From: a virus
IMG/VR virus record: IMGVR_UViG_3300044645_000668
Span: 1 to 24,317 of that record
Strand: one strand, 5' to 3'
DNA: 24,317 nt
Position 1 is the first letter of the stretch, and every line of letters begins with the position of its first letter. The position numbers and the translations under genes were made by a program. Positions 12,276 to 17,778 of the stretch are shown here, one piece after another. The notes beneath the pieces are model-generated. The model was given only the letters and a program-made list of their open reading frames with translations. It was not told the DNA's origin and made no database searches.

Positions 12276-12869
12276 ATGGCGAACACCATTCGCATCAAGC
12301 GGTCCACAGGATCGGCGGCACCGACGACGCTGCAAAACGCAGAGCTTTCCTATAGCGAAGGCGTGGCCGGCGGCGGCACGCTGTTCATTGGCGTTGGCAC
12401 GGGCGGTGCTGGTGGGTCTGCCACCAGCGTCATCGCAATCGGTGGGCCGTCAGTGTATGCGTCCAAAAGCTACGTGGACTCTGCGATTAGCAATGCCAAC
12501 CTGTCGAACTACCTGACCACGTCTGCCGCTGCATCGACCTACCTTTCACAAGCAACGGCGGCCAGCACATATGCAACCCAGAGCAGCGTAAGCACGGCGA
12601 TCTCCAACGTGATCAATGCCGCCCCGGCGGCTCTCGACACGCTCAAGGAGCTGGCCGACGCTCTCGGGTCGGATGCTGCGTTTTCTACGACAGTGACAAC
12701 GTCCATTTCCGGCAAGCTCGCAAAGGCGAGCAATCTGTCGGACGTGGCCGATGTGTCTGCGGCTCGTACGAACCTTGGGCTTGGCAGCATGGCAACGCAG
12801 TCGGCAGGCAATGTGGCGATCACTGGCGGCTCAATTGACAACGTGACGCTTGACGGCGGCACGTACTGA
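12276..12869 (+). CDS. Tail fibre protein with coiled-coil repeats
   Basis: The 197-residue protein starts with IRIKRSTGSAAPTTLQNAEL, the N-terminal attachment pattern of many trimeric phage fibres (major-tropism-determinant type). Residues 60-110 are Ala/Ser/Thr-rich heptad-like repeats (SAAASTYLSQATAASTYATQ). The segment APAALDTLKELADALGSDAA is a very common tail-fibre motif, followed by ASNLSDVADVSAARTNLGLG. The C-terminus (ITGGSIDNVTLDGGTY) is a short beta cap with no receptor-binding domain, so it is probably an adaptor in a larger fibre. Its ATG follows the previous stop by one base. Confidence 0.8.
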   Translation: MANTIRIKRSTGSAAPTTLQNAELSYSEGVAGGGTLFIGVGTGGAGGSATSVIAIGGPSVYASKSYVDSAISNANLSNYLTTSAAASTYLSQATAASTYATQSSVSTAISNVINAAPAALDTLKELADALGSDAAFSTTVTTSISGKLAKASNLSDVADVSAARTNLGLGSMATQSAGNVAITGGSIDNVTLDGGTY

Positions 12870-12928
12870 CCGAGCCGGTCTGAAAACAAGAACATCCGGC
12901 AACAATGCCGCAACGAAGGACGTGACGC

Positions 12929-13297
12929 ATGCCGACGTTTTCTCAGCTTCCTGGCGACCTAACGGTTGAGTTCGTGGTCGCTGACGAAGTCAACTTCACG
13001 CTTGACCTAGACGTTGACGTGACGGGCTACACGTTTACGGCAGGCGTCTACGTCGTCTCCACTAACGGCTTCTTCGGTGGTGGTGGCGGAACGATCAACG
13101 CTGTCGGTGCCACGGCGATCACGCCGACGATCACGGTCGTGAACGCTGCGGCTGGCACTCTGTCGTGGGGCGTGAGTGAAGCCCAGACGGTGACGCTGTC
13201 GCCTGCGATCAAGTACCGGCATTTTGTGCGGTGGGTGACTCCTGCCGGCGTGACTCGCACGGTTGTCTCTGGCGACCTCATCGCAAAGGCACCATGA
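12929..13297 (+). CDS. Small beta-rich baseplate/fibre adaptor-like protein
   Basis: A 122-residue protein between two fibre genes. The pattern LPGDLTVEFVVADEVNFTLDLD, then VDVTGYTFTAGVYV, and later ITVVNAAAGTLSWGVSEAQT and YRHFVRWVTPAGVTRTVVSG suggests an Ig-like beta sandwich like the N-terminal domain of lactococcal BppU-type fibres, which bind the baseplate. The Gly run GGGGG in the middle is a flexible loop. Its stop overlaps the start of the large fibre (ATGA), consistent with joint assembly. No enzymatic motif is visible. Confidence 0.6.
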   Translation: MPTFSQLPGDLTVEFVVADEVNFTLDLDVDVTGYTFTAGVYVVSTNGFFGGGGGTINAVGATAITPTITVVNAAAGTLSWGVSEAQTVTLSPAIKYRHFVRWVTPAGVTRTVVSGDLIAKAP

Positions 13298-15957
13298 GCA
13301 ACATCACCGTCAACGTCACGAACGCCGGGGCGGCTAACGTCGCCGTCTCCAACGGCTCGACGGTCAATGCGACTGTCGGTAATGGCGGTGCGGTCAATGT
13401 GTCGCTCGGCACGATCTCGCCGGGCAACGCCACGGTCGTGTCTGGGACCGTCCAGGTTGGCAAGGTCACGACGCTGGCGGCTGGAAGCAACGCCACAGTG
13501 ACGAACACCAACGGCACAAGCTACGCAGCCGTGCTTGATTTCGGCATACCGGCTGGCCCGTCTACGTCCGTGAGCGTCGGCAGCACGACCACGCTGGCGG
13601 CTGGCAGCAACGCCAGCGTCACCGGCACAACGAGCGACGGCAACCTGACGCTGTCGTTTGCGATCCCTCGCGGCACCAACGGGACTACGCCGAGCTTCAC
13701 CATCGGCAACGTCTCGACGGTGGCTGCTGGTGGCTCTGCTACCGTGACGGCAACGCCAAGCAACGGCGGGGCGAACGTCACGCTCGACTTTGGCATCCCG
13801 CGAGGCGCGGACGGCGCGGGCGGCGGCTCTAGCGTCTCGCTCTCCGACGCCACGCCATCGGCTCTTGGCACAGCGTCGGCGGGCACCAGTTCGCTCGCCA
13901 GCAGGAGCGATCACGTTCACGCCGTGCCCGTCATCAGCTATGCGAACCTGACCAACGTGCCAAGCACGTTTGCTCCGTCGGCCCATCAACACGCGGTTGG
14001 CGACGTGACAGGCTTGCAGACCGCGCTCGACTCCAAGAGCGCGACCAGCCACGCACACAACTACGTTACAGCGCTCAACAGCCTCACGGGTGGCGTCACG
14101 CTGGCGGCTGGCAGCGGCGTGACACTGTCCACCAGCGGCTCGACGCTCACTATTGCCGCGACGGCTACGGACGATGCGGACGGCGGTTTCTACGAGGGCT
14201 ACGTCCCGGCGAACACGATCACGATCGGCACGCAGCCGACCGCGCAGACTGCGAGCGGTGGCGCTGCGACGTTCTCGGTTTCTGCGACCTCGTCTCCCGG
14301 CGGCACGATTTCATATCAGTGGCAAAAACAGGACGGCGGCTACGGCAGCTATGTGGATGTCGATGGAGCCACGTCGGCCTCGCTCTCGCTGACGGGTTTG
14401 CTCAACACGGTGGACGATGCCGACCTCTACCGGGTGGTCGTGAGTGCGACGAACGCTGCCAGCGTGACAAGCACCTCGGCGCTGCTGACAGTGCCAGCGA
14501 ACGTCATCACGATCACCTCGCAGCCGTCGAATCAGACCGCCGCCAGTGGGGCGGCGACGTTCACGGCATCGGCATCGGTTGCTCCCAGCGGCACCGCGAG
14601 CTACCAGTGGCAGCGTTCGGCGGACGGTTCAGCGTGGGCAAACGTCAGCGGAGCCACGTCCGCCTCGCTGGCCTTGTCGGGCCTCACGGTCGAGGCGGAT
14701 GGTGGGGCTCAGTTCCGCGTGGTGGTGTCTGCGACCAACGCAGCCAGCGTGACGAGCAGCGCGGCTACGCTCACGGTCGAAGCGAATAACACGATCACGA
14801 TCACAAGCCAGCCGTCGAGCCAGACGGCATCGGGCGGGGCTGCCACGTTCTCGGTGGCGGCAAGCTCGGCACCGGCGGGCACGCCAGCGTATCAGTGGCA
14901 GAAGGCCGAATTTGTGCCTGCTCGCTCTGCGGCGTGGGTGCAGCGGACATTGCCGTCGTCGCAGGCGTGGAGTGCTGTCGCTTACGGCGGTGGTGTGTTT
15001 GCGGCTGTCGCGATCAACAGCAACGTCGCAGCCAGTAGCACGGACGGGCTGACGTGGACACAGCGCACGCTGCCGAATAGCACGACGTGGGGCGACATCG
15101 CCTACGGTGGCGGGCAGTTTCTGGCAGTCAGCAACACTGGCTCGACGGCATCCAGCGGCGACGGTGCTACATGGACGGGAGGCGGCTCCCTGCCTAGCAC
15201 GGGAAATCCTGGCGCGTGGGCCGTCGCGTTCGGCAATTCGCTATTCGTCGCAGTGCGGGCTGACGGCACGATTGCGACCTCTGACACTGGATTCGCGTGG
15301 ACGCAGCGGCGGGGGGCAGTGACCGGCACATACGGCCACAAAATTGCGTTTGGAGGCGCACAGTTCGTCGTTGTGAACGACTCGCCCGGCGGCGGATACG
15401 GTTACGTCACAAGCACTGACGGCGTGACGTGGCCGGCGGGCGGGTATTTGCCCGCTGAAAACACTCGCGCCGGGATTGTGTACGGTGGAGGTCTGTGGGT
15501 GGTCGTGGATCGCGGAAATGGCGCAGGCAGCAGCGCCTACTACACAAGCACCAACGGCACTACGTGGACCAAGCGCACGTTGCCCGTGACCGCCGACTGG
15601 CGAGCAGTCACCTACGGCGACGGCGCGTTCGTTGCGGTTTCCAGCGGCTCGCCGTCCACGACGCTCACCAGCACGGACGGGCTGTCGTGGACTCAGCGCA
15701 CGCTGCCGAGCACAGCGGGATGGAGGGCGGTTGGATTTGGCGGCGGCACGTTCGTCGCGCTGTCCAATTCCAGCAAAGCCGCCAGCGCAGCGCCCGGCAT
15801 CGGCACGTTCTCCAACATCAGCGGAGCCGCGTCATCGTCGCTCGCCTTGACGACCCTCGGCGCGGCCGACAACGGCGACCAATACAGAGCCGTCGTCAGC
15901 GCCGCCAACGCCGCCAGCGTCACCAGCCAATCCGCCACGCTCACCATCACGGGGTAA
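13294..15957 (+). CDS. Large tail fibre with Ig-like domains and an inserted seven-bladed beta-propeller
   Basis: The 887-residue protein reads as follows. Residues 1-180 hold three repeats of a fibre module (TTLAAGSNATVTNTNGTSYA..DFGIP). Residues 205-290 are a stalk with HAHAI-like collar segments (SAHQHAVGDVTGLQTALDSK). Two complete Ig-like domains occupy about 308-401 and 404-495 (ITSQPSNQTAASGAATF, YQWQRS, FRVVVSATNAASVTS). A third begins at about 500, is interrupted after YQWQKAE (about 538), and resumes at about 837 with FSNISGAASSSLALTTL to the end. The insert (541-835) has seven blades, each with W..LP..W..VAYGGG.FVAV and mostly ending in an Asp-box-like STDGLTW. This suggests carbohydrate or protein binding at the fibre tip. 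The ATG at 13294 overlaps the previous stop; a longer frame upstream is shadow. Confidence 0.88.
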   Translation: MSNITVNVTNAGAANVAVSNGSTVNATVGNGGAVNVSLGTISPGNATVVSGTVQVGKVTTLAAGSNATVTNTNGTSYAAVLDFGIPAGPSTSVSVGSTTTLAAGSNASVTGTTSDGNLTLSFAIPRGTNGTTPSFTIGNVSTVAAGGSATVTATPSNGGANVTLDFGIPRGADGAGGGSSVSLSDATPSALGTASAGTSSLASRSDHVHAVPVISYANLTNVPSTFAPSAHQHAVGDVTGLQTALDSKSATSHAHNYVTALNSLTGGVTLAAGSGVTLSTSGSTLTIAATATDDADGGFYEGYVPANTITIGTQPTAQTASGGAATFSVSATSSPGGTISYQWQKQDGGYGSYVDVDGATSASLSLTGLLNTVDDADLYRVVVSATNAASVTSTSALLTVPANVITITSQPSNQTAASGAATFTASASVAPSGTASYQWQRSADGSAWANVSGATSASLALSGLTVEADGGAQFRVVVSATNAASVTSSAATLTVEANNTITITSQPSSQTASGGAATFSVAASSAPAGTPAYQWQKAEFVPARSAAWVQRTLPSSQAWSAVAYGGGVFAAVAINSNVAASSTDGLTWTQRTLPNSTTWGDIAYGGGQFLAVSNTGSTASSGDGATWTGGGSLPSTGNPGAWAVAFGNSLFVAVRADGTIATSDTGFAWTQRRGAVTGTYGHKIAFGGAQFVVVNDSPGGGYGYVTSTDGVTWPAGGYLPAENTRAGIVYGGGLWVVVDRGNGAGSSAYYTSTNGTTWTKRTLPVTADWRAVTYGDGAFVAVSSGSPSTTLTSTDGLSWTQRTLPSTAGWRAVGFGGGTFVALSNSSKAASAAPGIGTFSNISGAASSSLALTTLGAADNGDQYRAVVSAANAASVTSQSATLTITG

Positions 15958-15960
15958 GCC

Positions 15961-17778
15961 ATGCCCAATCGCATCAAGCCACGCAGATCGTACACCGCCA
16001 ACTCCGTGCCGCTCACGAGCGACCTTGACACGCACGAGCTGGCGATCAACTGGGTGGACGGCAAAGCGTTCACAAAGGATGCCAGCGGCAACATCGTCAG
16101 CGTGACGCTCGGCGGGAGTGGTGGTGGCGGCGGCTCTGGTGGCTCGCTCTCTGGCAGCGTGACGATACCGGCGAGCGATCCGTACTGGGACAGCGTGCTG
16201 CTGCTGCTTCGCGGCGACGGCAACTTCACAGACGCGTCAAAGTACGGTCGCACGCTTACAGCCCACGGCAATGCGGCTGCGACGGCGGCTGGTAAATACG
16301 GCACCAACTCTATCGCGCTGGATGGAACGGGCGACTACCTGTCGCTTTCAAGCAGCGATTTTGCTTGGGGAACATCCGACTACACACTAGAGGCGTGGGT
16401 GTGGCTCAATAATCTTGGATCGTATGGCAGTTGGTTTTCAACACTCTTCAGCGACGGCAATATGTCCGGCGGGGTGAGTGCAGGAATTACCAATACAGGC
16501 ATGCCCTACTTGGAACACCTCAATGGATTTAGTGTCGTTGGCTCAACTGCTTTTCCTACGGCGCAGTGGGTCCATGTGGCCGCGACTCGCAGTGGCAATA
16601 CTGTGAAATATTACGTCAACGGATCTTCCGTTGGCAGTGTTTCGTTTTCCGGTTCGCACACAAATAGCTCCGTTGTCGTTGGGCGGTTCTACACTGACTT
16701 GGACAACAACTACTGGAACGGCCGCATCGCAGAACTCCGCGTAACGAAAGCGGCCCGCTTTACCGCGAACTTCACGCCGCCGACTGCCGCTCTGCCGACG
16801 ACGATCTTTCAGGCATCGCCCCAGACCCTCCCCGTCACTATCACCGGCTCGGGCGGCGGCGGCTCTGGCCTCTCATGGTCAAGCGTGCCAGCCTCCGCGA
16901 CGGCGACGGGGACGGCTGGGCAGATCAGCTACGACTCGTCTGGCTATTTCTACGTTTGCACGGCGGCGAATACGTGGCTGCGGGCGGCGTTGAGTACGTG
17001 GGACTCTGACGCCACTGCGTTCCTGACAGCGGCGGGCATCACGGACGCAACACAGTCATCGGCTATAGGGACGCTCGTCGGATCGCTGAAGAGCGCGGGC
17101 GTCTGGTCAAAAATGCGCGCGATTTACCCGTTCATCGGCGGCACGGCATCGACTCACAAATGGAACCTCAAAGACCCGCGAGACTTGGACGCCGCCTATC
17201 GGCTGGCGTTTTCAGGCAACTGGACGCACTCCGCAACGGGGGTCACTCCAGATGGCAGCACAGCGTACGCCAATACGTTCGCCGTGCCATCCACGTTTTT
17301 TAGCGACTACACAGGCGCATACGGCCTGTATCTGCGCACCAACCCAGCATCTTCGACTGGGTATCGAGTGGACATGGGCGCACAGTTTTTCTCGGACCCA
17401 ACAAGCAACCGATTTCTCCAGCATATCGGATCAACCGACGGCAATTCGTACTACGACTGGCGGAATCGCGTAACAGTTGCCACGTCGACCGTCGGTAGTG
17501 TCATTGGGTTCCATGTCGTCTCGCGGACAAGCACTTCGCTGATGACGGTCTACCGGAACGGCAATTCGGTTGCGTCCGGGACATCGTCGGACATCACCAC
17601 CGACCTGCCAAATCGCGCGCTCTACATCGGCGCACAGAACCACTCCGACGGACCGAGCTTGCACTCAAACCGCGAGCAGTCATTTGTGTTTCTGTCGGAA
17701 TCTCTGTCTGGCTCGGAAGTGACTGCCGTCAATGCCGCCGTGCAGGCGTTCCAGACGGCACTTGGCAGGAACGTCTGA
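15961..17778 (+). CDS. Tail fibre protein with LamG-like lectin domains
   Basis: A 605-residue protein. Residues 1-50 (NRIKPRRSYTANSVP, THELAINWVDGKAF, VTLGG) are a fibre attachment module, then a Gly/Ser linker. Residues 78-270 form a LamG/concanavalin-like jelly roll: LLLRGDGNFTDASKYGR, YLSLSSSDFAWGTSDYTLEA, WVHVAATRSGNTVKYYVNG, GRIAELRVTKAARF. After another Gly-rich linker, residues 300-340 are a short module (AGQISYDSSGYFYVCTAANT). Residues 355-605 contain a second phage-type LamG-like domain, with IYPFIGGTASTHKWNLKDPR and a later HVVSRTSTSLMTVYRNGNS. It likely binds surface glycans. The first lectin domain is visibly lower in GC than its flanks, suggesting exchange of the receptor-binding part. 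The ATG is three bases after the previous stop. Confidence 0.85.
   Translation: MPNRIKPRRSYTANSVPLTSDLDTHELAINWVDGKAFTKDASGNIVSVTLGGSGGGGGSGGSLSGSVTIPASDPYWDSVLLLLRGDGNFTDASKYGRTLTAHGNAAATAAGKYGTNSIALDGTGDYLSLSSSDFAWGTSDYTLEAWVWLNNLGSYGSWFSTLFSDGNMSGGVSAGITNTGMPYLEHLNGFSVVGSTAFPTAQWVHVAATRSGNTVKYYVNGSSVGSVSFSGSHTNSSVVVGRFYTDLDNNYWNGRIAELRVTKAARFTANFTPPTAALPTTIFQASPQTLPVTITGSGGGGSGLSWSSVPASATATGTAGQISYDSSGYFYVCTAANTWLRAALSTWDSDATAFLTAAGITDATQSSAIGTLVGSLKSAGVWSKMRAIYPFIGGTASTHKWNLKDPRDLDAAYRLAFSGNWTHSATGVTPDGSTAYANTFAVPSTFFSDYTGAYGLYLRTNPASSTGYRVDMGAQFFSDPTSNRFLQHIGSTDGNSYYDWRNRVTVATSTVGSVIGFHVVSRTSTSLMTVYRNGNSVASGTSSDITTDLPNRALYIGAQNHSDGPSLHSNREQSFVFLSESLSGSEVTAVNAAVQAFQTALGRNV

Follow-up and report, generated by a model that had tools for sequence, protein, structure and literature searches.

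Several described phage proteins join binding modules, Ig-like domains or propellers in ways that bear on the gene examined here. The evolved Dit proteins of siphophages carry a binding module in a beta-sandwich loop of a phage structural protein, and such modules are described as binding the host; there the module is a carbohydrate-binding one, and it is carried by the distal tail protein on its galectin domain (PMC7291167). Ig-like domains and a seven-bladed propeller are nested within one phage protein in the SU10 nozzle protein, although the nesting described there is the inverse of the one reported below (PMC9509320). The putative Hoc protein of phAss-1, a predicted virion protein, also unites four Ig-like domains with a propeller, but in tandem, with the Ig-like domains N-terminal and the propeller C-terminal (PMC10607447). 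Chains of Ig-like domains are likewise found in the tentaclins, proposed phage receptor-binding proteins, in which a C-type lectin at the N terminus is described as the binding head; one protein mentioned, from Brevibacillus, has a propeller in addition (PMC10743442).

The adhesin described here has a different arrangement, with a predicted propeller lodged inside a single Ig-like domain. Its carrier matches an Ig profile, unlike the galectin carrier of evolved Dit, and a sequence search of the adhesin at E 0.1 gave no Pfam match to a C-type lectin. Outside phages, the hybrid domain of integrin beta is Ig-like. It too receives a ligand-binding domain through two connections, but the insert is an A domain and the protein an animal receptor, so the likeness is one of analogy only (PMC12383024). 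In searches of the open-licence literature we recognised no paper that describes a phage Ig loop with a propeller nested in it. Nested binding modules in phage tails are thus already known, and the propeller in an Ig loop, as read from the sequence and a structural model, would be the new part.

The adhesin gene and its parts

The 24,317-base virus record (the window) is a siphovirus-like fragment by its gene matches, which include terminase, portal, protease-capsid, head-tail joining and tape-measure genes and, weakly, a major tail gene. Positions 12276-17778, between the head-tail joining and tail-completion genes and ahead of the tape-measure gene, are occupied by several adhesin-like genes in a row. 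The features considered here are as follows.

12929..13297, + strand, small gene upstream, sharing 4 bases with the start of the adhesin gene (weak match to phrog_1084)
13294..15957, + strand, whole adhesin gene, an ORF with its ATG start at 13294 (887 aa plus stop)
13294..14214, + strand, N-terminal stalk with GIPxG-type repeats and an H.H tail-repeat-like segment (PF12789, phrog_14)
14215..14493, + strand, Ig-like domain 1, intact (Ig profile, 148.2 bits)
14503..14778, + strand, Ig-like domain 2, intact (Ig profile, 134.1 bits)
14791..14904, + strand, Ig-like domain 3, N half, TITITSQP...YQWQK (59.8 bits, profile 1-38)
14905..15801, + strand, inserted seven-bladed Asp-box-type beta-propeller, assigned from repeats, AlphaFold2, structure matches and a blade profile
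15037..15057, + strand, Asp-box-like motif 1, STDGLTW
15154..15174, + strand, Asp-box-like motif 2, SGDGATW
15280..15300, + strand, Asp-box-like motif 3, SDTGFAW
15412..15432, + strand, Asp-box-like motif 4, STDGVTW
15547..15567, + strand, Asp-box-like motif 5, STNGTTW
15670..15690, + strand, Asp-box-like motif 6, STDGLSW (relative L008 has its mosaic switch here or just past it)
15802..15954, + strand, Ig-like domain 3, C half, GTFSNISG... to the protein end (51.1 bits, profile 44-93)
15961..17778, + strand, downstream gene encoding a LamG-like lectin domain (PF13385, 4.5e-21)

The stalk matched the phage tail repeat-like family PF12789 at E 0.00025, under Pfam's own cut-off, and the minor tail protein family phrog_14 at 9e-6. 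For the adhesin, an NCBIfam search returned zero matches and phmmer against the PDB nothing better than E 0.22. Of 26 loci compared, 20 have a match to the small gene at 12929-13297 ahead of their adhesin, and its product is a possible attachment partner.

The split Ig-like domain and its insert

The Ig profile was built from the copies in two relatives only (L010 and L012), with window sequences left out. The N half of the third domain (38 residues) scored 59.8 bits against profile positions 1-38 and the C half (51 residues) 51.1 bits against positions 44-93; joined, they gave a single match of 108.6 bits over the full length, 1-93, and the 299-residue insert reached a maximum of 0.1 bits. 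Three sets of 2000 shuffles each reached no more than 12.0, 11.1 and 10.4 bits, and chance resemblance was rejected on the comparison of 108.6 with 12.0 bits. These scores bear out a sequence-only reading of the window, which had proposed two whole Ig-like domains and then half of a third (148.2, 134.1 and 59.8 bits, the N half ending in YQWQK at 14904), had taken the C-terminal segment to be the missing half, and had placed the insertion in the loop after the Trp strand; the profile break at 38/44 falls in the C-C' hairpin. The span it gave, 14914-15798, lies inside the insert, whose limits we have refined to 14905-15801.

An AlphaFold2 model built with 19 window-and-locus rows had a mean pLDDT of 91.2 and a pTM of 0.88. 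The two Ig halves were both modelled with high confidence, at 92-95 over model residues 1-40 and 92-97 over residues 331-390 in ten-residue blocks. Structure-search rows lay mostly over model residues 43-339 (window residues 540-836), that is, over the propeller. Solved relatives of the intact Ig copies include 9ncf_S (named as an Ig-like domain protein) and 9c2d_S (named as a tail protein). Profile matches, pLDDT values and relatives together support a putative closure of the third Ig-like domain around the propeller. A tandem layout was rejected: the halves of the Ig profile flank the insert, and in relatives seven blades lie between split halves.

The insert itself consists of seven repeats whose pairwise scores average 64.1, where 300 shuffles averaged 23.8 (sd 1.2; maximum 27.3), and seven blades were found by a blade profile that was partly built from the window protein. 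In VIA-align the propeller matched virginiamycin B lyase 2z2o, which is seven-bladed (Z 31.4, rmsd 2.5, 281 residues), and 7big, a designer protein titled 7-bladed (Z 27.5). YCF48 held the top rank in Foldseek. YCF48-like proteins (5ojr, 2xbg), which are photosystem assembly factors, matched the propeller best in both Foldseek and profile searches, but the likeness covers the propeller only, at 14-18% identity. None of the 50 viral structure matches listed exceeded a query TM-score of 0.68, as fits matching by the propeller only. The register of the first and last strands, judged from sequence, fits a 1+3 Velcro closure. By a pattern that follows the Asp-box consensus, the insert contains six Asp-box-like motifs for its seven blades, and published Asp-box propellers are described as having at most n-1 boxes each (PMC2716378). 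The seven repeats of the sequence-only reading, mostly closed by such motifs, are thus upheld as a seven-bladed fold by AlphaFold2 and the structure matches; structure prediction and profile revealed neither a separate C-terminal domain nor a non-propeller fold or another blade count.

The distance in sequence between the two Ig halves, together with the fact that the AlphaFold2 model is a monomer, would also suit a domain swap, in which the N half would be completed by the C half from a second chain and the propeller would bridge chains; phage fibres are often oligomeric. The ends of a propeller are expected to be adjacent, however, and the one-chain model is confident along its whole length, so that we regard a swap as very improbable. 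Still harder to credit is an Ig-like domain that never closes, its C-terminal piece forming a free-standing mini-domain: that piece matches the second half of the Ig profile only, the joined halves cover the profile from end to end, both halves are retained in 21 nestings, and a relative (L012) carries the domain intact. We hold with high confidence to the nested fold, a complete propeller within the C-C' hairpin of the third Ig-like domain.

Nested, uninterrupted and otherwise filled domains in relatives

Relatives were drawn from scans of viral contigs, with 80 of 185 kept in one scan and 80 of 89 in another. Once exact copies and sequences contained in others had been set aside, an Ig-like domain split at C-C' with seven blades between its halves was found in at least 21 nestings in at least 20 distinct ORFs, 12 of the 20 having contributed to the blade profile. 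A stricter search for split domains recovered 18 of the 21 nestings, missing L051, L059 and L073; L091, discussed below, was also unlisted. One protein (L127) has two nestings. Its long open frame (L127:3515-9514) contains many Ig-like domains, two of them each with a nested seven-bladed propeller.

Classification by script was applied to 65 records, namely 64 contigs hand-picked from match tables and the window, 44 of which have the stalk motif. The script assigned these 44 to C-C'-nested (20), A-B-nested (11), intact (7) and intact but truncated where the contig ends (3) classes and left three without a class; moving L042 to the A-B class and L051 and L059 to the C-C' class by hand gave final counts of 21, 12, 5, 3 and 3. 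Seven of the 21 C-C'-nested records comprise the window itself and six contigs that match it at 100% over the query.

The sequence-only reading had also called for relatives with the third Ig-like domain uninterrupted, or with a different insert at the same point. The former was found in L012, where the third domain is followed by two more Ig-like domains and an RCC1-type propeller; the candidate for the latter, L091, is less clear. In none of three copies compared did both halves of the third domain match that of L012 best, and because these matches are indecisive we treat the uninterrupted site as a homologue and not as a proven ancestor. Distal parts vary further. L010 combines the nested propeller with an RCC1 domain at its C terminus, L035 has its insert in the second Ig-like domain and a further C-terminal LamG domain, and L031 to L034 have one intact Ig-like domain and a different C-terminal part, for which Pfam gave zero matches in L032. 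With these added domains beyond the propeller in L010 and L035, the fibre-tip position given in the sequence-only reading is a putative one.

A second kind of nesting uses the A-B loop. Asp-box-type repeats lie between Ig strands A and B in ten aligned copies (L038, L039, L042, L046, L050, L054, L057, L064, L068 and L069) and, separately, in L066 and L071. For L064 the model likewise matches propellers, with Z 29.5 against virginiamycin B lyase and 24.8 against the 7-bladed designer protein, though its confidence is lower (pLDDT 79.9; 63-79 in the Ig part). The C-C' loop of L091 holds a 145-residue segment (L091:5407-5841) within a large subtilase-bearing phage protein. This segment shares 39% identity over 89 residues with a second stretch of its own protein and had zero Pfam matches; it is perhaps plastocyanin-like, given a weak, below-cut-off copper-binding match elsewhere in the protein and a resemblance to such proteins. 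The same Ig-like domain also has a long B-C loop, which makes it a weaker case. A related seven-bladed Asp-box propeller, 39% like that of the window, occurs inside a Phage-tail_3 / Rcc01698-type tail hub protein (L108:2450-5785). In addition, L085:5935-12567 is an array of Asp-box-like blades and Ig-like stretches with a period of about 420 residues.

In a propeller tree with a midpoint root only and seven end branches flagged as long, the C-C' kind did not form one clade (2 changes, with 4% of bootstrap trees having one). L066 and L071, both long-branched, fell inside the C-C' kind; the other ten copies with A-B-loop propellers made up one starred side of the tree, and propellers outside Ig-like domains (L107, L108 and phage B23) another. 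A DNA search of cultured phages returned one 73-base match, to two Caulobacter phage CcrSC records. The cultured-phage records that we examined contain propellers but zero nested ones, all nested examples coming from uncultivated virus records; two translated cultured-phage relatives have blade-like repeats, with no split Ig-like domain by eye. A scan of genome contigs gave one weak relative among 197 stretches, matching Ig residues only.

Putative binding head, exchange and the receiving hairpin

Among 16 of the 19 rows, kept after near-copy removal and still related to one another, with segments assigned by sequence grammar, mean column entropy was 2.09 bits in BC loops, 1.52 in strand A and 1.51 in DA loops, against 0.63 in AB turns, 0.86 in CD turns and 0.80 in the Ig. 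The BC and DA loops of a propeller share one face and the AB and CD turns the other. Since the Ig joins the propeller at a CD position, the more variable face appears to be the one turned from the carrier, as a binding face would be; the low variability of the turns may reflect Asp-box structure alone. We picture an adhesin in which the stalk would be followed by two Ig-like spacers and then by a third Ig-like domain with its C-C' hairpin opened for the seven-bladed propeller. The chain would run from Ig strand C into the outer strand of the last blade (as the sequence register suggests), through the seven blades and back to strand C'. Such a two-strand hold at the rim would probably orient the propeller more firmly than a single linker, with the variable loops facing away from the carrier toward a ligand on the bacterial surface, probably glycan or protein. 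The propeller is thus probably the receptor-binding head of the adhesin, a role that we regard as putative.

Two further possibilities bear on this role, one on function and the other on location. A six-bladed sialidase was rejected, seven blades being counted by repeats, AlphaFold2, structure matches and the blade profile alike. GH33 and GH58 are sialidase families. Their propellers are described as six-bladed, against the seven blades here, although several glycosidase families contain Asp-box propellers (PMC2716378) and the insert might on that ground be an enzyme, sialidase-like or otherwise glycan-cleaving, and not a binding head. Over the 19 rows, however, the propeller's only fully invariant acidic residues are D87 and D126 of Asp-boxes, and it has no invariant Glu, His or Tyr, so that no invariant catalytic set is apparent and an enzyme seems quite unlikely. 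As for location, the protein could be a Hoc-like decoration of the head or neck instead of the tail fibre that the sequence-only reading called it, which would be compatible with an adhesin: its gene sits between head-tail joining and tail-completion genes, and its Ig-like domains match the head protein family phrog_613 and the Hoc-like decoration family phrog_2973. Those matches are confined to the Ig-like domains, whereas the stalk matches tail families, if weakly, and we consider a head or neck position possible but the less likely placement. The downstream LamG gene matches virion families of tail and head categories alike and is therefore undecisive.

The sequence-only reading had likened the propeller to a swappable cassette, and the exchange part of that proposal is supported by comparison of gene order across 26 loci, 12 of which have a matching head, neck or tail gene (identities are those of the best segment). 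Similar portal, capsid, head-tail or neck genes accompany differing distal modules in L034, L038, L049, L063 and L064. The capsid of L034 is 92% identical and two small upstream genes 98-100%, yet its Ig-like domain is intact; L049 (capsid 93%, neck gene 99%) is nested in C-C', and L064 (capsid 86%, head-tail gene 94%) in A-B. In L060, one of the 12, the backbone is divergent, at 52% for the portal and 44% for the capsid. L008 is almost identical to the window up to about residue 790 and beyond it is 88-99% like L009 and 67-83% like the window; on this alignment it is a recombinant within the propeller. Because similar backbones carry different distal modules and L008 is such a mosaic, exchange of the distal part among relatives by recombination is supported. 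The modular adhesin as a whole, with the nested propeller as binding head and a distal part exchanged by recombination, strikes us as a likely explanation.

The hairpin that receives the propeller has features of its own. An Asp-box follows within 14 residues of the Trp-strand motif in 51 of 144 distinct intact Ig-like domains, compared with 2 elsewhere in the Ig; shuffling gave a mean of 0.165 and a maximum of 2, of 153, over 200 shuffles. The C-C' hairpin of the second domain in the window, SADGSAW, fits the pattern used, and single Asp-boxes are described in some Ig-like domains (PMC2716378). The chain break of the propeller coincides with the place of the missing seventh Asp-box. In L135 and L136, two nearly identical sequences, the first junction still has a segment resembling an Asp-box. 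The position of the break, together with the Asp-box in a third of intact C-C' loops, suggests that nesting could have arisen as a splice between two similar hairpins. The ten aligned A-B-loop copies retain the Asp-box in C-C', so this route would not explain A-B nesting. More tentatively, and with somewhat less than even confidence, we suggest that phage Ig-like domains might be general sockets into which propellers are spliced in register through exchange of Asp-boxes, breaking neither fold, the C-C' hairpin often being an Asp-box of the sort with which propeller blades close; the A-B loop would be a second socket, the C-C' loop would also take an unrelated segment (as in L091), and a related propeller also sits in the hub protein of L108.

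Empty, filled and differently filled loops on similar backbones offer a testable model for how binding heads change while their carrier is kept. They suggest that the Ig-like chains of phages, besides acting as spacers, may offer mounting points, and that domain insertion can be guided by a short hairpin common to both partners. If Ig-like domains do prove to be general sockets, they would provide phages with a plug-in system for swapping receptor-binding heads.
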